64,000 bases of DNA from an uncultured Lachnospiraceae bacterium. GTDB lineage: Bacteria > Bacillota > Clostridia > Lachnospirales > Lachnospiraceae. The notes under the pieces are model-generated. The model worked only from the letters and a program-made list of their open reading frames with translations, had not been told where the DNA came from and searched no databases. The translations under genes were made by a program, and so were the position numbers. The DNA is taken from positions 1 to 64,000 of the forward strand of contig CANOVJ010000016.1 in the NCBI GenBank assembly GCA_947570615.1, in the 5' to 3' direction. Positions within the stretch are counted from its first letter, which is position 1. The number at the start of each line of letters is the position of its first letter. Shown here in pieces: positions 10,417 through 27,884 of this stretch.

Positions 10417-10990
10417 TTACTCGGTAACTAATTTAAAATTATATTCTGCAATAAAATATATACAGGTATTTAACACCCAGATAAATCCCGTCATACTGTC
10501 TTTACTCGCTGAATTCTGCGCTTTTAGTATTTCAGTCAGATCCAGTCTTTCAAAATATTCTTTGTATCTGTTCTCCGGAGGATAATTAATATACAGCCTT
10601 CCCATATCAGCAGCATCAGCAAAACATCTTTGCATTTCTAAAATCTTTTCTTCCGGGAAATTTATATCATGTCGCTCATAATCAAATACTAAAACTATAT
10701 TTGTGAAATCTTCTTTAATATCGAAGTTTATCCGGATATTGTTTCTTACTGATAACAAAGGGAAGATCAATATCTTCATTTTCCTCTGCCCACTGCTCAC
10801 CATACTCTTTCACAATATCGTTATATAACTGATAGATATTTGTTCCATAAATCCAGATTTCGTCCATATTGATATTTATTTCAGGAAAGCATTTAACAAG
10901 GAGCCGGAATAACTTATTTTTTTCGTGATGCCCTTCTACGATCAGCAGATTTTGGCCTCGTTTTCTCACCTCACTTCGATAACTATTCAT
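10417..10990 (-). pseudogene. TOPRIM-like partner of the OLD-type ATPase, frameshifted
   Basis: The start ATG at 10990 overlaps the 3' end of the ATPase gene by 8 bp, so the two were translationally coupled. The first frame gives about 80 residues beginning NLLIVEGHHEKNKLFRLL, with the Glu expected of a TOPRIM metal site, and stops at 10715. A second frame continues the same protein (TNIVLVFDYERHDINF, with an acidic D-x-E pair) and ends at 10417. The frame change falls between about 10715 and 10760. The assembled protein would be about 190 residues, so an internal or C-terminal part may also be lost. It is AT-rich like its partner. The TOPRIM assignment is my inference from the acidic motifs. 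Confidence 0.65.
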
Positions 10991-12134
10991 ATTTATCAAA
11001 CTCCCCGCTAATGTACATCTTTTCAAGATTATGACCTTCTCTCAGCTCTCTTTCTGTTGCATTACAAAGCGCAGTCAGTGTACCCGCTCCTGACAAAATA
11101 AATAAACAATCCGGTCGCATCAGTCGGTTTGTCATCAAATTAGTATTATGAGAAGTCATAATAATCTGACATTCAGGATATCTTCTCTTAAAAAAGTTAA
11201 TCACCTTCTCTGCCATTTCATAGTGATAAAAGGCGTCAAATTCATCTAAATATATAAAAGACGGATCCCAGCTTTTAGGAATCAACCGCCTGTATAAATC
11301 AACCAATGCTAACGTTCCACTGGATGCAGTTTCATAAAACGGTACTAATTTTTCGTGTCCAAAATACAGCTCTCTCTGACCGTCTGGTAATTTTATTAAT
11401 ACCAGTTTACACTCTATACCCATTTCATTAAGAAAATTTTCCAGATCCTTTAATTTGTCCGGATCCTCCAGCAATTCATAAAAACTGTCATTCATTCTTC
11501 TTGAAATTCTTAACATTCCATTTCCGGCTGTAATCATAAGCATTCTTCTGGTATAATTGGCCAATTTAATCAGAACAGAATCATTGCTCAATGCAACATT
11601 ACTTATCAACCACCTCAAAAATGGAAGCTTAGGCTCCTGAGGCTCTTCCTGCTCACCAATATCTATTGATTGCAAATATCTGTCCGTACTGGCTGTTTCC
11701 GCATTTATATATTCAAGATTCTTAAAATCAAATTTATTATTTTCAAAATCACAATGGAAAATAGTCTTACCGTCAATGAGCAATTCTTCGTCACTGAGTT
11801 TCTGGTGGGAAAATCGAGCATAGCGATATACCAATTCATTATTTCCAAACCTGAACTCATATGAAAAAGTTGCCGTTTCCTCTGTTGAGTCCGCATTTAG
11901 AAATATCCCTGTATCCAAATAAGTACGCCCGCCAGATATTGTTGTACATATATCAGTTAATGCCTTGCCCAAATTCGTTTTTCCTGTGGCATTCCTGCCA
12001 TAAATCAGCATTTTGCTTACAGTCCCAGCAGTGATACAATCTGTACTGAACTGATACCCCGCAGTATTTTCAAAATTTACAGATATTTCATCTTTAAAAT
12101 TTTTGTAATTTTTTACTGTAAATTTCTTTAACAT
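10983..12134 (-). CDS. AAA/OLD-type ATPase, likely phage-defence component
   Basis: A 383-residue ABC-like ATPase of the AAA_15/AAA_21 type. It begins MLKKFTVKNYKNFKDEISV, the usual opening strand. Walker A is YGRNATGKTNLG (about residue 45), the signature-like helix SSGTLALVDLYRRL (about 277), Walker B SFIYLDEFDAF (about 300) and the switch region TSHNTNLM (about 337). Such ATPases pair with TOPRIM nucleases in OLD, Gabija and PARIS defence systems. The downstream gene fits that role but is frameshifted. Base composition is clearly more AT-rich than the genes on either side, which suggests acquisition by transfer. Confidence 0.8.
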   Translation of the reverse strand: MLKKFTVKNYKNFKDEISVNFENTAGYQFSTDCITAGTVSKMLIYGRNATGKTNLGKALTDICTTISGGRTYLDTGIFLNADSTEETATFSYEFRFGNNELVYRYARFSHQKLSDEELLIDGKTIFHCDFENNKFDFKNLEYINAETASTDRYLQSIDIGEQEEPQEPKLPFLRWLISNVALSNDSVLIKLANYTRRMLMITAGNGMLRISRRMNDSFYELLEDPDKLKDLENFLNEMGIECKLVLIKLPDGQRELYFGHEKLVPFYETASSGTLALVDLYRRLIPKSWDPSFIYLDEFDAFYHYEMAEKVINFFKRRYPECQIIMTSHNTNLMTNRLMRPDCLFILSGAGTLTALCNATERELREGHNLEKMYISGEFDKYE

Positions 12135-12394: not shown

Positions 12395-14308
12395 ATGAGC
12401 AGAGACGATTACACAAAAGCATATAGAGCAGGAAAAAAGGATTACCAGGCGAGAATGCTCCGGGGGGAGAAGCCCACGCTGGAGGTTTTAGACGATATCA
12501 TGCCGGACAAGGGCTCCTATTTTGAGCAGTCCCTGGGGCTGGTGCAGATCCCCATCGACCAGATCGTGGGAACCAAGACAGTGGGAAGGAGCAGCTCCTT
12601 CTCCGGGAATTTTATGCCCATCCTGCGGGACGGGACGGAGTTTGCCGCCAAATGGGCCAGCTTAAGCACCAGCCATGTGGAGGAGGGGATCCGGGATCCC
12701 ATCAAGGCCTACGAATACATGAACAAATTTTATGTGGAGGAGGGGAATAAACGGGTCAGCGTCATGAAGTTTTTCGGCGTGGTCTCCATCCCCGGAATCG
12801 TGACCCGCATTGTGCCCAGGCGCACCGATGAAAAGGAAAATAAAATCTATTTTGAATTTATGGACTTTTATCAGGCCGCGCCCATCAATTATATCTGGTT
12901 CACCCAGGAGGGGAGCTTTAAAAAGCTCCAGGAGGCTGTGGGAAAGAAGCCCGGGGAAACCTGGAGCGACGACGAGCTGCTCAAGTTCAGCTATATTTAC
13001 ACGCGTTTTACCGCGGAGTTCAAGGCCAGAGGCGGCAGTCGTCTCTCCATCACCCCGGCGGACGCGTTCCTTTCCTTTATCACTCTCTACGGCTACGACG
13101 AGCTGGAGGAAAAGACTACCAATGAGCTCAAAGAGCTGATCGCGAAGACCTGGGAGGAGTTCGAGCTTCTTCAGGAGGATCAGGAGATCGACCTGCGCAT
13201 GAAACCCAGTCAGGAGAAGAAGCCGCTGATCAGCACGCTCCTGCATCCGCTGACCTCCTCCAGGCTTAAGATTGCCTTTATCTATGAGAAGACGCCGGGA
13301 ACCTCCGCGTGGACCTACGCCCATGAGCTGGGCAGGCTCTATCTGGAGCAGACGTTCCCGGAGGAGGTCAACACGGTTTTTTATGAAAACGGCACGCCGG
13401 AGAATAGTTCTCTTTTGCTGAACGAGGCCATGGACGCCGGCTGTAACCTGATCTTCACCACCACGCCCTCCTTTGTGCAGGAAAGTGTGAAGGCGGCTAT
13501 CGCCAATCCCCATGTTCATATTCTGAACTGTTCTCTGAACACCTCCCACCGCTACATCCGCACCTACTATTCGCGGATGCACGAGGCCAAATTCCTGATG
13601 GGGGCCATCGCGGGAGCCATGGCGGAGAACAACCGCTTAAGCTATGTGGCGGACTATCCGATTTACGGTTCCATCGCCAACATCAACGCTTTCGCCCTGG
13701 GGGCCAAGATGATCAATCCCCGGGCGACGGTTTATCTGGAATGGTCCTCCTTAAAGGACGCTGATCTGGAGGAGAGGCTGCGCAGATCGGAGGCCTCCTG
13801 TATCTCAGGACGGGACATGGTGATCCCGGAGGACGCCTCCCGGTTTTTCGGCATTTACCATCTGGAGGGGGAACATCCCAGAAATCTTGCCATGCCTCTC
13901 TATCACTGGGGAAAGTTTTACGAACAGCTGATCCGCACCATCATGGACGGAACCTGGAAATACGACGACGATCCCTCCTCCACCAAGGCAATCAACTACT
14001 GGTGGGGCATGGCGGAGGGCGTGATCGACGTGGTGTGCTCCCAGCGCCTTCCCATCGGCACCAAGCGGCTGGTGGAGCTGCTCAAGTCCACCATCAGCTC
14101 GGAGGTGTTCAATCCTTTTTCCGGAATTCTCTACTCCCAGAGCGGAATCTTACAGGATGACCCGAACCGGAGCCTCTCTCCCGAGGAGATCATGACAATG
14201 GACTGGCTGGCCGAAAACGTGATCGGCTCCATTCCCAGAAAAGAGGAGCTCACCGAGCACGCGGAGGCTGTGATCAGACAGCAGGGAGTAATAAAAAAGG
14301 AAGGTTGA
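12395..14308 (+). CDS. Cytoplasmic BMP-domain protein with ParB-like N-terminal part
   Basis: A 637-residue protein. Residues about 285-610 match the basic membrane protein (BMP/Med) ligand-binding fold of nucleoside-binding proteins (KIAFIYEKTPGTSAWTYAHELGR, FTTTPSFVQES, FLMGAIAGAMAENNRLSYVADYP). It has no signal peptide or lipobox, so unlike transport proteins of this family it should stay in the cytoplasm. The N-terminal 280 residues contain VEEGNKRVSVMKFFG, which resembles the ParB/Srx-type motif. The start has GGGAGGCGG upstream. The metallophosphoesterase gene follows after 7 bp. It may be a nucleoside sensor; the function is not known. Confidence 0.75.
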   Translation: MSRDDYTKAYRAGKKDYQARMLRGEKPTLEVLDDIMPDKGSYFEQSLGLVQIPIDQIVGTKTVGRSSSFSGNFMPILRDGTEFAAKWASLSTSHVEEGIRDPIKAYEYMNKFYVEEGNKRVSVMKFFGVVSIPGIVTRIVPRRTDEKENKIYFEFMDFYQAAPINYIWFTQEGSFKKLQEAVGKKPGETWSDDELLKFSYIYTRFTAEFKARGGSRLSITPADAFLSFITLYGYDELEEKTTNELKELIAKTWEEFELLQEDQEIDLRMKPSQEKKPLISTLLHPLTSSRLKIAFIYEKTPGTSAWTYAHELGRLYLEQTFPEEVNTVFYENGTPENSSLLLNEAMDAGCNLIFTTTPSFVQESVKAAIANPHVHILNCSLNTSHRYIRTYYSRMHEAKFLMGAIAGAMAENNRLSYVADYPIYGSIANINAFALGAKMINPRATVYLEWSSLKDADLEERLRRSEASCISGRDMVIPEDASRFFGIYHLEGEHPRNLAMPLYHWGKFYEQLIRTIMDGTWKYDDDPSSTKAINYWWGMAEGVIDVVCSQRLPIGTKRLVELLKSTISSEVFNPFSGILYSQSGILQDDPNRSLSPEEIMTMDWLAENVIGSIPRKEELTEHAEAVIRQQGVIKKEG

Positions 14309-14315
14309 CACTGCC

Positions 14316-14939
14316 ATGAGGATAATGGTGATCGGAGATGAGGAGTCAAAATCTTTGTGGGACTTCTTTGATAAAAGCAAGGTGGAGGGGGTTGACCTGA
14401 TTATTTCCTGCGGCGACCTGGATCCCCGCTACCTTTCTTTTCTGGTTACTCTCTGCGCCGTACCCGTTCTGTACGTGCATGGGAACCATGACGGAAAATA
14501 CGAAAAGGTACCGCCCGAGGGCTGTACCTGCATTGAAGACCAGATTTTTGTATACGAGGGCATCCGCATTCTGGGGCTTGGGGGTTCCATGCGCTATCGT
14601 CCCGGCCCGCACCAGTACACGGAAAAGGAGATGGAAAAGCGGGTAAAAAAGCTCTGGTACCAGCTTTTTAAGCACCGGGGCTTCGATATCCTGGTGACCC
14701 ACTCTCCCGCCTATCAGCTGAACGACGGGAGAGATCTTCCCCATCAGGGCTTCCAGATCTTCCGGACTCTGATGGAAAAATATCGTCCCAGGTTTTTCCT
14801 CCACGGTCACGTGCATATGTCCTACGGAAGAAAACACAAGCGCTATGACCAGTATCAGGATACCCATGTGATCAACGCGTTCGAGCGCTGCACCTTTGAT
14901 TTTGAGGACGACAATCCCAGGGAACATATCGTGAGATAA
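14316..14939 (+). CDS. Metallophosphoesterase
   Basis: A 207-residue calcineurin-like phosphoesterase. Metal ligands are visible in order: MVIGDEES at the start, CGDLD (about 32), GNHDGKY (about 58), THSPAYQ (about 128) and HGHVHMSYGR (about 160). The first motif is GDE rather than the usual GD-x-H, so one metal ligand looks replaced. It lies 7 bp after the BMP-domain gene and is probably translated with it. The substrate is unknown; a nucleotide or second messenger would fit a nucleoside-binding partner, but that is a guess. Confidence 0.85.
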   Translation: MRIMVIGDEESKSLWDFFDKSKVEGVDLIISCGDLDPRYLSFLVTLCAVPVLYVHGNHDGKYEKVPPEGCTCIEDQIFVYEGIRILGLGGSMRYRPGPHQYTEKEMEKRVKKLWYQLFKHRGFDILVTHSPAYQLNDGRDLPHQGFQIFRTLMEKYRPRFFLHGHVHMSYGRKHKRYDQYQDTHVINAFERCTFDFEDDNPREHIVR

Positions 14940-14944
14940 TGCGC

Positions 14945-15688
14945 TCAGAGGCTTTCCTCCTCCAGCTCCTCCAGAATATGGAGCATATCCCGGATGGACT
15001 CGCCCTGCCGCAGCTTTTCCTGTAATCTGCGCAGTACCTTCAGATAACTGATTTTCTCCGGTATCACGCCCTCCACCACGCCGGGGAAAAGGGTTCTGAT
15101 GTTGTCGATCATGATTTTAACAAGCTGCTTGTTCAGAATGTCCGCGTAGTGCTCCTGACACCGGGCCGCCGTCTGGTCGATCATTTCCCGAAACGCCTCC
15201 ATCCCTTCCGCCTGCGCGTCTGTCTCATACAGTATCCTGTCATAGGAAAGAATCCGGTACTGCCTCTTTCCAAGCCGTACGTTGTCCTTAAGCCGCACCA
15301 GCGCCATCAGGATCCCCCTGCTCTCTGCAAGCCTTTTTCTCTGCTGGTTGACATAGTCCGTCTTAAGACCTTCGATTACGCAGGGGATCAGCCCTTCCCC
15401 GAATTCAAGAAGAAGGGGGTCGGCCACCAGATTGTTTCTGATCTCCTGCTCCATGATCACATTGTTGTTTTCGACAACCTTTCCCTCCGGGATCCCGAGC
15501 AGCATGTCCGCGTTCACGTCCAGAACCTGACAGATTCCCTTCACCAGGGAGATGTCGGGCAGACCGCTTCCTCTCTCCCACTTGCTCACCGCCTGGGGCG
15601 TCACGCCCAGCCGGGAGGCGAACTCCTCCTGGGTCATTTTCCTGTTCTGCCGGTACTGGCAGATGATATCTCCGATGCTTTCCTTCAT
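14945..15688 (-). CDS. XRE helix-turn-helix fused to an FlhA-like C-terminal domain
   Basis: A 247-residue protein if started at the ATG at 15688. Residues 1-65 are a standard Cro/CI helix-turn-helix (MTQEEFASRLGVTPQAVSKW). From about residue 85 the sequence matches the cytoplasmic domain of FlhA/FHIPEP export proteins in order: DPLLLEFGEGLIP, RLKDNVRLGKRQYRIL, then the C-terminal set AARCQEHYADILNKQLVKIM, PGVVEGVIPEKIS, LRRLQEKLRQGESIRDMLHI. No membrane part is present and no flagellar gene lies in the window. The domain is probably a sensor or oligomerisation module here. It is convergent with the phosphoesterase gene, only 5 bp away. Confidence 0.8.
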   Translation of the reverse strand: MKESIGDIICQYRQNRKMTQEEFASRLGVTPQAVSKWERGSGLPDISLVKGICQVLDVNADMLLGIPEGKVVENNNVIMEQEIRNNLVADPLLLEFGEGLIPCVIEGLKTDYVNQQRKRLAESRGILMALVRLKDNVRLGKRQYRILSYDRILYETDAQAEGMEAFREMIDQTAARCQEHYADILNKQLVKIMIDNIRTLFPGVVEGVIPEKISYLKVLRRLQEKLRQGESIRDMLHILEELEEESL

Positions 15689-15825
15689 GACAAATACCTG
15701 TGCCTTTCTCACGTCTGTGAATGATAAGGATACGTTACCGCAGCCCCGCTGACCTGTACCCCTATTATACCGGCCCGGAGCCTGGCGGTCTAACAACGAA
15801 GTGTTCATCTCCCCCTCAACCCGGT

Positions 15826-22174: not shown

Positions 22175-23245
22175 TCAGAATTTTTCGCTCTCCACTTTTT
22201 CTTCCCCCTTTTCCTCATAGAGCTTTCCCATGGCCTGGATGCGGCTTCTTATCTCCTCAATGATCTCCCTGGGCCCAAGCACTCTGGCGGAGGGCCCAAA
22301 GGAGAGGATCAAGCCATACACCCAATCGTCAACCTGGCAGCACATATGGATTTCGAAGCTGCCGTCCGCAAGCACCGTGATCTGATCCTCCTCGAAGCGG
22401 TCGTACACCCGCCAGGCCTCCTTTTTGTCGATCAGAAGGACAATCTCTCTGTACGTTTTGTCCGCGGGAACGTCGTCAGCTTTCGCTTTCCCGGTCGCAT
22501 CCACAGCATCCGCGCCCCCGCCGCCGCAGACGTTTCCGCCTCCAGGATTGCCATCCCCGACACTTCCGCCCCCGACATTGACGTCGCCGGCAATGTTCCC
22601 ACATATTTGTTCCGGAAAAATCTGTCGGCCTTCCTCTGCCCGCGGCGTAAAGCTCTCCTCCTTCCGCTCCACCCGCTTCATCCGCAGCACCTTGAACAGC
22701 CGCATTTCCTGCCGGGTTCTGCAAAAGGCCCGCAGATACCAGGTATATTCCCTGAAAAGAAGCTGCACCGGTTCCACCTCCCGGTGGCTCATGCCGCCGT
22801 ACTGTCCGTAGTAGTCGAACACCAGCACGTTATGGAAAAGAATGGCCTCCCTGATCTGCCCGTACAGCTCCCCCCGTCTCCCGCTCCAGTCGGAAAAGTC
22901 GATGGACACCCAGTTTAAGGGCTCCGCCCTGAAAAAGTCCCCCAGCTTTATAAGGATCTCTTCCTCCTTAAGCGCTCCGGTCTCCTTCAGGCTCTCCAGC
23001 GCGGAGAGGATCTGCGTCTGCTCCTGTCTGGTCACCAGCATTTTGTCCAGCACGAACTCCCGGGTGATGCTGATCCCTCCGTTTTTGCCCTTTCTGGCAT
23101 AGACGGGAATGCCCGCCATGCTCAGCGTCTCCACGTCCCGGTAAATGGTGCGCACGGACACCTCGAACCGCTCCGCCAGCTCCGCCGCCGTGACGGTCCC
23201 CTTATTCATCAAAAGATAGATCATGCCCAGCATGCGATTGAGCAT
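22175..23245 (-). CDS. YafY-type WYL-domain transcription regulator
   Basis: A 356-residue protein. It has an HTH_11 domain (1-60; TAAELAERFEVSVRTIYRDVETL), a WYL domain (about 130-190; ILFHNVLVFDYYG, EPVQLLFREYTWYLRAFC) and a C-terminal WCX domain (about 265-345). Between WYL and WCX is an unusual insert of about 45 residues (216-262), mostly Gly, Asn, Asp and Val (GGGSVGDGNPGGGNVCGGGG). WYL regulators bind ligands or nucleic acid to control repression. It lies upstream of the zinc-ribbon gene in the same orientation. Confidence 0.85.
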   Translation of the reverse strand: MLNRMLGMIYLLMNKGTVTAAELAERFEVSVRTIYRDVETLSMAGIPVYARKGKNGGISITREFVLDKMLVTRQEQTQILSALESLKETGALKEEEILIKLGDFFRAEPLNWVSIDFSDWSGRRGELYGQIREAILFHNVLVFDYYGQYGGMSHREVEPVQLLFREYTWYLRAFCRTRQEMRLFKVLRMKRVERKEESFTPRAEEGRQIFPEQICGNIAGDVNVGGGSVGDGNPGGGNVCGGGGADAVDATGKAKADDVPADKTYREIVLLIDKKEAWRVYDRFEEDQITVLADGSFEIHMCCQVDDWVYGLILSFGPSARVLGPREIIEEIRSRIQAMGKLYEEKGEEKVESEKF

Positions 23246-23319
23246 TTTAACATTCTCCCTTTCCTCGTGGTATTGTGTACAACAAACGCTGTCACGCTTC
23301 GCAAGCCAGCTTATTGTAA

Positions 23320-24287
23320 TTAAAGCATTGCAGACAACGCTTCACATTCTGCATAAAGCTGTTTCAGCGAGCTGCTTTTTTCCCCGGACGTGAGGTTATC
23401 GCATTCCACACTGTATATAAACTCTGAAATATCCTCCATTCTGCGCCTGAGACGGTAAAACGCCAACGCGTCCTCACTTACTTTGTACTCTTTTCGCCGC
23501 TTCTGACAGGCCGACATAAACTCCCCTGCGGCATAATCAAAAAAGAATCCTTCCGTAAAGACAAACAAATCCGCCTCTGCCGGTGCAAGACGCAGCCCTT
23601 CCCAGTCTACCAGAATAATTTTGTCCGTCCACATGAGATTCCATCCATGTATGTCGGTATGACACAGCACCCTGTTCCCGTGGCTGCTTTTCAGAGTCTT
23701 TGCCAGCATCCCCAGCCTTTCAAGCCCTCCTCGCAGACTGCTTTCAAAAGGCCGCAGGATACTCTGAACCCCGGACTCTTTATCCCTTCTGTCCGGAAAA
23801 GCTTTCAGCATATCCGCAAACGGGAGAGAAAAGTCCTCCTGAATAAATTGTGCGGATCCGGATATCTCCCCGCCATGCGAATGTAATTCAGCCAACGCCC
23901 AGGCCAACTGCCGGATCTGTTCTTCCGTAAGACGATTATTCTTTAATGTTGCCCCATTTATCATGGGGAACGCCACAAGAATCCACCTGTCGTCTTCCAC
24001 TTTATACTGACCGCTGCGGGTCAGCACAGGCGCAGCCATCCAGTCACGCATCCCCGTATCCTCACAAAGCCTGAATAAAATGGGCATATATCTGTCCATA
24101 CGGTCGATATACGGCTGCACGGAAGATCGATGTTTATCATATGCTTTTACAAAGTATTCTCCTTCTGTGGTCCTTACCGTGCAGGCCTGCGCCGTCCAGC
24201 CCCGTCCACCTGCCTGATTTCACATATATCCGAAGCATAATTTTCGCTGAACAGGCGCAAAACAGATTCCAATATGATTTTTTTCAT
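23320..24287 (-). pseudogene. APH/choline-kinase-like phosphotransferase, frameshifted
   Basis: The true start is probably the ATG at 24287, with GGAGG six bases upstream. The first frame gives MKKIILESVLRLFSENYASD and reaches a G-run (CCCC on the plus strand at 24200-24203). One base is missing there, and the protein continues in another frame with GWTAQACTVRTTEGEYFVKA and then the kinase body. Catalytic motifs are intact: LCHTDIHGWNLMW and ILVDWEGLRLAPAEADLF. The repaired protein would be about 322 residues. The family includes kinases for aminoglycosides and other small alcohols. A homopolymer slip or assembly error explains the break equally well. Confidence 0.7.
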
Positions 24288-25003
24288 CCTGACCTCCATA
24301 TCACACTCCTGACGGCGGCACGATACGGACTTCACACGCTTCCTGTATATTGTGATCTCACATCTGCGCCTCCGTCTCGATCCACGGTATTCTCCCGTCG
24401 CCGCCTGCTTCTTCTGTGTTTCATCCAGTATAAAGAAAATCACACCTCCTGGCAATACCGGACATACCAGATAAATATCTTTTTGGATGCAGTAATCTGC
24501 ACTTTTACATGGGAGAGACAGGCTTTCTGTTCTTTTCCTTTGTAAAACACACTTGTTTACTGACCTGGAAACCGGAGAACAAGTGTAATATATAATTATC
24601 AAAGTGCATTTTTGAGTAAATTAAAAAGGTGCAAAGTCTATTCAATTATCAAGGTGCTGTTTCATTTTTCAGCAGGAAATGTTATAAAAGGAAGAGGGCT
24701 ATGATTACAGCTATATACACTACACGTATATAGCGCCATGGTACGAAAAGCCTGGATATAAAACTGTACTGAGATGGAACAGGAATGGAATTAAATAGTG
24801 CGCCATACGAAAATCAAAGATACCCGTGTGTAAGGCAGAGAGCAGGACATCACAGAAAACGATTGATCAGGGGTACTTCCACCCAAAAGTGAAAGCCCCC
24901 CGATCAACAGAAGGCTGACTGACCAGTGCTCAGGAAAGATCGCACCGCATCAAAAAATCACCCTCTCAAACCTGGTTTTCCAGGTTGCTGCCGCTTCAGG
25001 CTT
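24288..25003. other. Gene-free stretch with repeats, possible insertion-sequence remnant
   Basis: I see no supportable gene here. The stretch is AT-rich and holds a 14-base direct repeat, AATTATCAAAGTGC (24594-24607) and AATTATCAAGGTGC (24644-24657). It also holds several inverted repeats: ACACTTGTT/AACAAGTGT (24549-24557/24578-24586), a perfect GCTATATAC/GTATATAGC (24710-24718/24726-24734) and a long hairpin at 24863-24907 that begins TTGATCAGGGG and ends GATCAA. Repeated short motifs near an end, followed by a ribosome-binding-site-like AGGAAGAGGGC and an ATG with an early stop, recall IS21-type ends. No transposase is left. Confidence 0.4.
24969..24986 (-). terminator. Hairpin after the inositol operon, possible terminator
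   Basis: AACCTGG-AAAA-CCAGGTT on the minus strand, 18 bases after the last gene of the operon. The T-run (TTTTTT) comes about 11 bases later, so it is a weak intrinsic terminator at best. Confidence 0.4.
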
Positions 25004-26659
25004 CTATGCAAACTCCTCCAGCTTCCTAGCGACTCTTCTTCGAAGCTCATACAGCCAGGAGGCCTCCTTCGGATATTCCGTGAAGGTAAAGGGCTTCTCC
25101 CCTCCCTCATAGATCAGCGCTTCCACCGTCTCCCGCCCTGCCAGGGACTCCAGCTTTTCAAGGGCCCGCATATCGTAAAGAGCCTGCCGCTGTACCTCCG
25201 CCCGAAGGGACGACCAGGGCTCTCCCTCCGGCCCCGGATAGACCAGGAAGGAATCCCCCGAGGGGAACGCATACCCGGCGTGGGTATTCAGGAACGGATC
25301 GATATGCTCCGCAGAGAGCTGGGAATTGTAAAAATTAAAGCTCCACTGCAGAAATCCCTTAATATCATACAGATACATCAGCACGCCCATGATCCGGTTT
25401 CTGGCGCCGGGCATGGCGAAAAAGCGATTGGGAACCAGATATTTCTGGCTGCAGCAATAGTATGTCCAGAGATTTTTCACCCCGTGATCCACAAAAGACT
25501 GGATATGATCGTTGGAGGGAATCGGCTGGGCTACGAGACCCTTTTCGTAAAAATCGTAATCGCTCAGGGCGTCTATGAGATTCCAGCCCTCTAACAGATC
25601 CGTCACCACCGCTTTAGCCTGCTGATAGGTCTCCATGCTCTCCACCGAGGGCTCGTCGGAGATATGGAAGTAAATCTGTTCCTTCCGATATCCCAGGGAC
25701 AGAAGCTTATCCTGCAATGCAGGAAGAAAAGCTCTCAGAAAGCTCCGGTAGGAGGGGTCTGTGGCCGCTACATGCCAGCCGAACATTTTTTCCAGTCCCT
25801 GATCCGTCTCCACCATGATCTTGGGCGTAGCCTTCGCCCCCCACTGGGTAAAGAGGTGGGGGATCTCGATGTACTCCGCCCCGTACCTTCTGCACAGGCC
25901 ACACCATCTCTCCAGCTTTTGGAAGTCAAAGCTCCACTTTCCTTCCCTGTAAGAAATATCCGCCAGCTGCACCGTGGTGCGCTCCCCTCCCACGGCCGTG
26001 TCAAGGGGCGGGGTAAACACCGGCGTCAGGATCATATTCACGCCCAGCTCCCCGGCCAGCTTAATCTGCTTTTCGATAGCCTGCCAGTGAAATTCCCCGA
26101 ACACCTCCGCCCGGTAGTAATCCGCCAGGCAGTCCGCGTGGAACCACTGGGTATGGATCAGCTTCTGAGGCGGCAGCTCCTGAGCCGACACCTCCAGGGT
26201 AAACCCAAGACGCACCTCTTCCTTTTCAGAGGTAAGCGCCACCTCCACCGGATAAATTCCCCCTTCCACTTCCTTCGTTCCAGGGAAATCAATCCACACG
26301 GCCCGGTACTGTCCCTCCACCGGGACGATCAGATCGTCCCGGCGGGGCTTTAACAGATCCGGGAACAGGCCCGGCTCCCTGGTCAGATAGTTGTCGTCCG
26401 TGCGGCCCCTTACCGGCATGGCGGAAGGGATCTGCTCCACGTCCCGCAGTCTCGCCCGGGCGGGGAACCCTTTGATTTCACAGCGGAAAATATCCCTCTC
26501 CTCGTCCTGTGCCTCCGGAAGCATCCGGTACACAAGCTGCAGGGCAGGGATCTCCCCCCGCAGGATGGAGATCCTCTCTCCCTCCTCCATCACCTGGGGC
26601 ATCCGGTTCCAGAACACCTTTTCCAGAGAGCCCGCCAGATAAAACTCATACTTTGCCAT
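25004..26659 (-). CDS. DUF4091-type glycoside-hydrolase-like protein
   Basis: A 551-residue protein if started at MAKYEF (26659); an ATG at 26695 is also possible. It has an N-terminal beta-sandwich (about 1-190) and a TIM-barrel-like domain. The barrel starts at HTQWFHADCLADYY and has the acidic motif HISDEPSVESMETY (about 375), typical of the DUF4091 family of putative glycosidases. No signal peptide is present, so it acts in the cytoplasm. It is the last gene of the inositol operon. I infer that it cleaves or remodels an inositol-containing sugar; no substrate can be read from sequence. Confidence 0.8.
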   Translation of the reverse strand: MAKYEFYLAGSLEKVFWNRMPQVMEEGERISILRGEIPALQLVYRMLPEAQDEERDIFRCEIKGFPARARLRDVEQIPSAMPVRGRTDDNYLTREPGLFPDLLKPRRDDLIVPVEGQYRAVWIDFPGTKEVEGGIYPVEVALTSEKEEVRLGFTLEVSAQELPPQKLIHTQWFHADCLADYYRAEVFGEFHWQAIEKQIKLAGELGVNMILTPVFTPPLDTAVGGERTTVQLADISYREGKWSFDFQKLERWCGLCRRYGAEYIEIPHLFTQWGAKATPKIMVETDQGLEKMFGWHVAATDPSYRSFLRAFLPALQDKLLSLGYRKEQIYFHISDEPSVESMETYQQAKAVVTDLLEGWNLIDALSDYDFYEKGLVAQPIPSNDHIQSFVDHGVKNLWTYYCCSQKYLVPNRFFAMPGARNRIMGVLMYLYDIKGFLQWSFNFYNSQLSAEHIDPFLNTHAGYAFPSGDSFLVYPGPEGEPWSSLRAEVQRQALYDMRALEKLESLAGRETVEALIYEGGEKPFTFTEYPKEASWLYELRRRVARKLEEFA

Positions 26660-26726
26660 ATCCTTTGCCCGTTTCCTTTCCGTTCTTTCTTCCATATCCG
26701 CCGGCTTCCTTCTCCGCTCCCGGCTC

Positions 26727-27884
26727 TCAGTCCTCCCAGAGCGACCGGTAAATGGCCGCAATATCCTCCGCGTTAAGCGCCCGCCTGGTGTTGGCCGGAG
26801 AGCCCGACGCCAGGGCGTCATGCGTCATCCTGGGAATGCTGTCAAAAAATTTCTCCCGATCCAGCCCGTACTCTCCGGGCGTGGGAATCCGGCAGTCCTT
26901 ACAGAGCTTTTCGCAGGCGTGGATGAATTTCTCCGCCGCCTCCGGATCCGTATCCTTCTCCCCCGCCGCTCCGATGGCCCTGCCAAGATCCGCGAACCGC
27001 TCCGCCGCCTCCCTGTACACATAAGAAAAGCATGCCGGAAGGAGCATGGCGTTGCTGACCCCGTGGGGCACATGGAACAGGGCACCGATGGGCCGGCTCA
27101 TGCCGTGGATCACCGTGACGGAGGCGTTGTTAAAGGCGATCCCCGCCTCCAGCGCCGCCAGGCTCATCTGCATCCGGGCCCCCGCATCGTCTCCATGGGC
27201 GAAGCACTCCGGCAGATACCGGAAGATCCGCTTCACGGCGCTGAGCGCCAGGGTATCCGTCATGGGCTGGGCCCTGCGGGAGGTGTAGGCCTCCGCCGCG
27301 TGGCAGAGAGCGTCCAGCCCGGTGGCCGCCGTGATGGAGGGCGGCGCGGTCATGGTGAACCTGGGATCGTCCACGGCGATATCCGGCATCAGAACCTTTC
27401 CCTTAAGGAGCATCTTGATGTCCGCCTGGGTGTTGGTGATGATGGTAAACTGGGTGGCCTCGGAGCCCGTTCCGCTGGTGGTGGGGATGGCCGCCATGGG
27501 AGGAAGGGATCCCGTGATCTCCTTCCCGTACCAGTCGTTGATGGAGCCGCCCGCCACCGCCACCACGGCGATGGCCTTCATGGTGTCGATGGGGGAGCCG
27601 CCCCCCACAGCCGCCAGAAAATCGCAGCCCTCCGCTTTCCAGAGCGCCAGGCCCTCCTCCACCATCCGGTCCGTGGGCTCCCCCGTCACACCCTCGAACA
27701 CCGCGAAATCGGTTCCGTTCTCCTTCAGTATTTTCGTCACCGCATCCACGTTTCCAAGCTTAACCATGGAAGGGTCTGTGACAATCAACGCTTTTTTTCC
27801 GCAGCCAGCCAGGAACGGGGCCGCCTGTTCAAGGGCCCCCTCCCCGTAAAAAATCTGCCTGGGCATCATAAACTGATTCGACAT
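26727..27884 (-). CDS. Iron-containing (group III) alcohol dehydrogenase
   Basis: A 385-residue enzyme if started at MSNQFMMPRQ (27884), which has a GGAG nine bases upstream. It has the NAD-binding GGGSPIDTMKAIA (about 95), the TTSGTGSEAT motif (about 137) and the metal site: Asp in TGLDALCHAAEAY and His in HGMSRPIGALFHVPHG. These enzymes reduce aldehydes or oxidise alcohols with NAD(P)H. In this operon iolA is missing. The enzyme may reduce the malonic semialdehyde made by IolJ to 3-hydroxypropionate; that is inference from position only. Confidence 0.88.
   Translation of the reverse strand: MSNQFMMPRQIFYGEGALEQAAPFLAGCGKKALIVTDPSMVKLGNVDAVTKILKENGTDFAVFEGVTGEPTDRMVEEGLALWKAEGCDFLAAVGGGSPIDTMKAIAVVAVAGGSINDWYGKEITGSLPPMAAIPTTSGTGSEATQFTIITNTQADIKMLLKGKVLMPDIAVDDPRFTMTAPPSITAATGLDALCHAAEAYTSRRAQPMTDTLALSAVKRIFRYLPECFAHGDDAGARMQMSLAALEAGIAFNNASVTVIHGMSRPIGALFHVPHGVSNAMLLPACFSYVYREAAERFADLGRAIGAAGEKDTDPEAAEKFIHACEKLCKDCRIPTPGEYGLDREKFFDSIPRMTHDALASGSPANTRRALNAEDIAAIYRSLWED

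Follow-up and report, generated by a model that had tools for sequence, protein, structure and literature searches.

The window (the whole 64,000-nucleotide stretch analysed here, from an uncultured Lachnospiraceae bacterium) carries a gene in which a helix-turn-helix (HTH) domain is joined to pieces of the cytoplasmic domain of FlhA, a protein of the flagellar export gate (Table 1). This pairing had been proposed by a first-pass annotation and is borne out by profile searches. Pfam places an HTH_3 domain, with matching fold, at residues 11-61 (E 7.7e-15), and FHIPEP (PF00771, the FlhA family) in two pieces (E 7.1e-16; 58.3 bits against a gathering score of 29.1). The NCBIfam FlhA model TIGR01398 matches at E 6.3e-18 but reaches 64.4 bits against an equivalog cut-off of 772.1, and phmmer matches FlhA-C of Bacillus subtilis (3mix) at E 4e-10. 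Together, these matches indicate that the FlhA likeness is homology rather than a product of chance short motifs. The annotation had also held that no membrane part is present, and the N-terminal transmembrane domain of FlhA is indeed absent: the 247-residue protein begins with the HTH, and its PF00771 matches start at profile position 321 of 657. The start methionine is common to all 22 rows of alignment A1, in which the starts of the relatives are a scripted choice (the start codon closest to the beginning of the match, at that point or before it). A1 and A3 are alignment sets of 22 fusion rows each, A3 being the wider set; G000 denotes the window's own genome, and other G and L numbers label genomes and loci of this analysis.

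Table 1. Features of the fusion gene and its promoter region in the window
Feature	Position	Strand	Details
HTH-FlhA(D1/D3) fusion gene	14945..15688	-	247 aa; start ATG at 15688
XRE/Cro-C1 helix-turn-helix	15491..15688	-	residues ~1-66; Pfam HTH_3 match 11-61
Linker-like helix, residues 75-87	15428..15466	-	model helix 77-87; occupies the FlhA linker position
FlhA domain D1 core, residues 90-157	15218..15421	-	EFGxxLIP ... RxRDN ... YRILSYD
Last D1 helix and FlhA domain D3, residues 163-247	14948..15202	-	ADILNKQLVK ... ESIRDMLHILE
Putative operator TGAACACTTCGTTGTTAGAC	15788..15807	-	abuts the -35 box; family consensus T[CA]AAC-N5-GTTG-TTTTAC
Putative -10 box TATAAT	15764..15769	-	18 bp after TTAGAC; from sequence

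In phmmer alignments, residues 70-148 pair with FlhA 342-422 of the full-length chain 36hw_A2, and residues 180-245 with positions 176-241 of the 369-residue chain 6ai1, approximately FlhA 499-564 if the offset of 323 from the first piece is applied. The D1 and D3 fold of the FlhA cytoplasmic domain is present, and the resemblance to FlhA-C expected beyond residue 80 holds at the level of fold. When the 22 A3 fusions were aligned with 30 FlhA rows, 45 consecutive FlhA columns were gapped in 86-100% of the fusions, exactly between residues 165 and 166. The lost stretch (about FlhA 423-498) comprises D2 and the rest of the return of D1, given where we presume the D2 and D4 boundaries of FlhA to lie; D4 and the membrane domain are gone too, leaving the last piece with no D2 ahead of it and no D4 behind. 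With one FlhA as query, the FlhA-like part is 22-27% identical to FlhA over its length, and a 67-residue piece of the copy at L026 reaches 40%. The copy in G159 (L075) keeps much of the D2 region, matching PF00771 314-541 in one stretch (E 7.4e-29), and looks like an intermediate on the way from FlhA to the short fusion.

The missing stretch bears on what such a domain could sense. According to excerpts of PMC8166844, FlhA-C is the docking platform for the chaperones FlgN, FliS and FliT, and its dimple residues D456, F459 and T490 lie at the D1-D2 interface; in an excerpt of PMC8213127, chaperones bind FlhA between subdomains 4 and 2. Sensing of flagellar chaperone-substrate complexes through the FlhA-like domain would build on this docking role, yet the dimple residues fall inside the stretch that the fusion lacks, and subdomains 4 and 2 are both missing. 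Because the site itself is absent, chaperone sensing by the known FlhA route is unlikely, and we regard chaperone sensing as highly improbable overall. The first-pass interpretation, in which the export-gate domain was reused in gene control, perhaps to sense export chaperones, is thereby divided: sequence, fold, tree and selection all speak for reuse of the gate fold in a protein with a DNA-binding domain, and the chaperone part, as far as it relies on the known site, falls with the dimple.

The pieces that were kept could serve contacts between subunits. In the FlhA ring, the linker contacts D1 and D3 of the adjoining subunit through residues E351, W354 and D356 (PMC8166844, in excerpt); a later paper, likewise in excerpt, puts the linker contact on the neighbour's D1 and D2, not D1 and D3, and names GYXLI as an FlhA motif (PMC9431611). 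The linker-like helix of the fusion carries Ile83 at the position of Trp354 (phmmer alignment, read by eye), which is invariant in the 22 rows of A1 and not in A3. Of GYXLI the fusion retains the glycine but has lost the tyrosine, which all 30 FlhA rows share. The FlhA part may be an oligomerisation fold only, joining HTH heads without conveying any flagellar signal, in which case the tie to flagella described below would reflect the birthplace of the domain. The C-terminal domain of SinR or lambda CI brings HTH heads together in this manner. The linker contacts of FlhA favour such a role, as do the loss of the dimple and D4 from the fusion and the failure to find a flagellar regulon (see below).

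A contig scan of public genomes returned 39 loci, consisting of 21 intact fusions, a fusion with a broken frame (L026), a D3 remnant (L038) and 16 loci whose match is confined to the HTH part. Of the 22 loci with a fusion, 21 are labelled Lachnospiraceae, Roseburia, Agathobacter or Acetatifactor, and one, L009, is labelled Clostridia only. In a profile search of 299 genomes of the family (298 genera), at least 12 carry the fusion, a count based on at most the best 12 candidates per genome, so that a divergent fusion could be missed; a thirteenth candidate, G287, was rejected as a cut FlhA. With G169 and G189, two of the 12, counted once with L007 and L014, the distinct fusion genomes number 32. 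An intact fusion is also found in the single-contig genome G242. Across 392 Clostridia genomes, again with at most the best 8 candidates per genome scored and a divergent fusion liable to be missed, the only matches listed that were not FlhA-like frames were in G000 and, as a remnant, in G687. Outside the family, six frames of short or unusual form (G654, G456, G696, G615, G474 and G662) were inspected, and every one reads as a piece of FlhA.

At the sensitivity used, no fusion was found in phages, plasmids or IMG/VR. A phage origin was rejected, the single phage match being an unannotated record that carries an FlhA ORF, and a plasmid origin likewise, both plasmid matches being annotated flhA genes. 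At 22213-27782 (L201), the record MT835480.1, labelled Bacteriophage sp. (UNVERIFIED), contains a 688-aa FlhA-like ORF; the ORF ahead of it reads by eye as FlhB, and the two together make this part of the record look like a bacterial flagellar cluster. A viral-contig scan seeded with two HTH peptides returned 45 loci. The two that reach furthest into the C-terminal part, L166 and L184, were read and rejected as fusions, the former being an XRE protein with a hydrophobic, membrane-like part and the latter a 171-aa XRE protein; in the other 43, the match ends by residue 94.

All 22 A3 fusions lie on one side of a 100/100 branch that separates them from the 30 FlhA rows. For this tree 35 FlhA loci were considered and five left out, three by a motif and length filter (L001, L090 and L094) and two by a motif filter (L082 and L084). 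Branches within the fusions are long and the root of the tree is unknown; the topology is compatible with one origin of the fusions, short of proving it. In pairwise comparisons, the dN/dS of the FlhA-like part is 0.08-0.24 in eight of nine pairs (dS exceeds 1 in four of the eight) with one pair saturated, and that of the HTH is 0-0.10 in seven of nine, the others being saturated. Both halves of the fusion are under selection in the pairs tested. A decaying FlhA fragment or an assembly artefact without function would account for the broken copies (L026 by its frame, L038, L081 and the second copy of G301), yet the fusion is intact in 21 public contigs and in G242, its promoter site is kept, and the selection test contradicts decay; we find this explanation scarcely credible.

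As a separate observation, the D3-only remnants at L038 and L081 (in G687) and the broken frame at L026 seem to reflect a fusion gene that is lost now and then. G301 encodes a second fusion copy (L204, G301:C70:4000-7642) without the start of its HTH. The gene directly upstream of this copy looks, by eye, like one for a serine recombinase, so the HTH part may be the site of a mobile-element insertion.

FliG is encoded in all 32 fusion genomes, which argues for a tie between the fusion and flagella; the first-pass annotation had suggested seeking the fusion elsewhere and checking for flagella, and this is the outcome. An FlhA of at least 300 bits is found in 30 of the 32, the exceptions being G249, whose FliG runs off a contig end, and G317. 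The window's own genome has both FliG and FlhA. Within the family sample, 151 of 299 genomes have FliG, namely every one of the 12 with the fusion and 139 of the 287 in which none was seen (one-sided Fisher p 2.2e-4, a statistic that ignores kinship), and none of the 148 genomes without FliG had a fusion among the matches listed. Since no fusion was seen in 139 of the 151 FliG-bearing genomes, flagella do not need it. This distribution weighs against the oligomerisation fold: a mere oligomeriser should outlive the loss of flagella, yet FliG accompanies the fusion in 32 of 32 genomes. We consider that reading possible rather than probable.

The window genome encodes two distinct FlhA proteins that share 45.7% identity over 346 aa (L001, G000:C44:2-1798; L002, G000:C27:2-1210), both best matched by the FlhA model. 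One of them may belong to a second export system or to a contig that contaminates the bin.

An inverted-repeat site, a typical though not a defining trait of XRE regulators, lies upstream of the fusion gene. Since a -10-like box follows the T[CA]AAC-N5-GTTG-TTTTAC site, the latter abuts the -35 box. An operator matrix scored with leave-out gives at least 16.8 to 26 of 32 upstream regions, a level reached by at most one of 671,250 background positions; the matrix was trained on sites of its own choosing, a bias that leaving out each row and its near kin lowers without removing. Six regions have weaker sites, namely L048 (13.3), L053 (12.3), L075 (11.5), L010 (9.8), the window (9.0) and L055 (3.0, not significant). 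For the window's leave-out score, about 0.015 sites are expected by chance in the region. The conservation of this promoter site suggests autoregulation.

Sites beyond the gene's own promoter are not in excess. The exact pattern matched 21 times in the 32 genomes, 15 times at fusion promoters (in 15 genomes) and six times elsewhere, against seven matches of the control; it cannot match the G000 site, which reads GAAC, and G000 gave no match. Among the six, L113, L114 and L124 lie in long open frames, L123 and L128 lie beside a gene that looks ribosomal-protein-like by eye, and the sixth is L108. With one mismatch allowed, ten genomes gave 37 matches, nine at fusion promoters and 28 elsewhere, and the control also gave 37. 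Of 27 one-mismatch loci viewed, 22 are inside ORFs of at least 80 aa, and the remaining five showed nothing flagellar on inspection by eye. Outside fusion promoters, exact and one-mismatch sites are thus at control level and reveal no flagellar regulon. The flagellar contigs of G000, G299, G300 and G169 (241,891 bases) contain no match to the operator core [AC]AAC-N5-GTTG-[TC], a test that is weak for G000, whose own site departs from the core, and nothing above 13.4 bits for the full matrix. Direct control of the flagellar clusters of these four genomes through this site is not supported by the sequences. A rearranged control core matched six times in the same bases, and the absence of the true core from these contigs (L095-L107) could be chance or avoidance.

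The gene neighbourhood offers no flagellar partner either. ORF clustering of 23 contexts (the window and L006-L027, up to 8 kb on each side, some clipped by contig ends) found no neighbour conserved beyond close kin. The 22 ORFs of one flagellar cluster (G300) have no close relative in these contexts except the fusion itself, where the queries were plus-strand ORFs of at least 130 aa and the set left out flagellin and chemotaxis genes located outside that cluster; the ORF read by eye as FliI finds a 27%-identical ATPase in the contexts of L018 and L019. In the window, the downstream neighbour of the fusion gene is convergent, so no operon partner follows it. A protein that acts mainly after translation would fit the lack of an operon partner: as a decoy for an FlhA subunit it could cap or poison the gate ring and so limit flagellar number or export, with the HTH only setting its dose by autorepression. 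The confinement of exact sites above control level to its own promoter, in 15 genomes, and the presence of FliG in all fusion genomes tested agree with such a decoy, but an identity to FlhA of only 22-27% (one FlhA query) and the lost tyrosine of GYXLI count against it. We judge a decoy decidedly unlikely.

The mechanism proposed here starts from these computed features (the fusion and its fold, the single branch apart from FlhA, selection, FliG in every fusion genome tested and the conserved promoter site). We favour an autoregulated one-component transcription regulator whose sensor would be a mimic of an FlhA subunit, a reading that we place somewhat short of an even chance. Its XRE domain would recognise the inverted CAAC-N5-GTTG site that adjoins the -35 box in the promoter of its own gene. 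What remains of the FlhA cytoplasmic subunit in the C-terminal part (linker-like helix, D1 core and D3) would act through protein-protein contact: it would oligomerise and most likely dock onto the export gate of the flagellum or the FlhA subunits in it, FlhA being the probable partner. Binding to DNA, at least at its own promoter, would then depend on whether the export apparatus is present or how far it has been assembled. The sign of regulation is presumed to be repression, the default for XRE proteins, and targets beyond its own gene may exist. In Helicobacter pylori, FlhA binds the flagellar regulator FlgS, and there the N-terminal part of FlhA, not the cytoplasmic one, was enough to produce the regulatory effect (PMC6978683, a review, in excerpt). 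Against gate docking stand the missing D2, which the linker contacts according to the excerpt of PMC9431611, the tyrosine of GYXLI that is not kept, and the lack of a flagellar neighbour and of a flagellar regulon in the searches above.

A more specific form of gate docking is a one-protein assembly sensor, in which a repressor with a built-in piece of the FlhA ring would enable the cell to sense or count its export gates. Free protein would shut its own promoter and perhaps a few targets, and copies that dock into or cap FlhA rings would leave the DNA. If true, coupling of gate assembly to transcription would need neither a two-component system nor a secreted anti-sigma factor. We consider such a sensor unlikely.

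Compared with the FlhA cytoplasmic domain (PF00771; SctV-C in injectisomes), the fusion lacks the membrane domain, D2 with the dimple, and D4, and has gained a DNA-binding head. XRE regulators of the one-component type are known with various C-terminal domains; unlike SinR/SlrR and other members, the fusion has a C-terminal module derived from an export gate. The NCBIfam families listed for three fusions do not name a pairing of HTH and export gate, and no description of an HTH-FlhA fusion was found in the open-licence PMC literature, where an export-gate domain as the C-terminal module of an XRE regulator appears to be undescribed. The proposed logic resembles the checkpoints of FlgS/FlgR (Campylobacter, Helicobacter), FlrBC and FleSR, in which transcription follows assembly of the export gate (PMC7064773, PMC6978683, both in excerpt). 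All of these work as two-component systems with the MS ring, rotor and export gate as their inputs (PMC7064773, in excerpt), whereas in the fusion a piece of FlhA would be part of the regulator itself.

A structural gate part has been reused in a protein with a DNA-binding head, with the D1-D3 core kept and the cargo-binding parts shed. Lachnospiraceae are abundant gut commensals whose flagellins are seen by the immune system, and the matching of flagellar genes to flagellar assembly in this family is, to our knowledge, little studied. If the fusion reads the gate, it would represent a very direct coupling of machine to gene and a handle on motility control in relatives of Roseburia and Agathobacter. 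Even as a mere oligomerisation fold, it would be a clear case of a secretion-gate domain turned regulator module.

Other genes near the fusion in the window have features of their own. The gene at 12395-14308 (+) encodes a protein of 637 residues whose Bmp/PnrA-like substrate-binding domain (residues 292-462) follows about 290 residues that have no Pfam match and, by eye, no signal peptide. Relatives of this gene and of the phosphoesterase gene at 14316-14939 adjoin the fusion in L006 and L008. Further away, 10417-12134 (-) contains a gene for an AAA_21 (AbiEii-type) ATPase followed by two short ORFs, which could be a small defence-type module.
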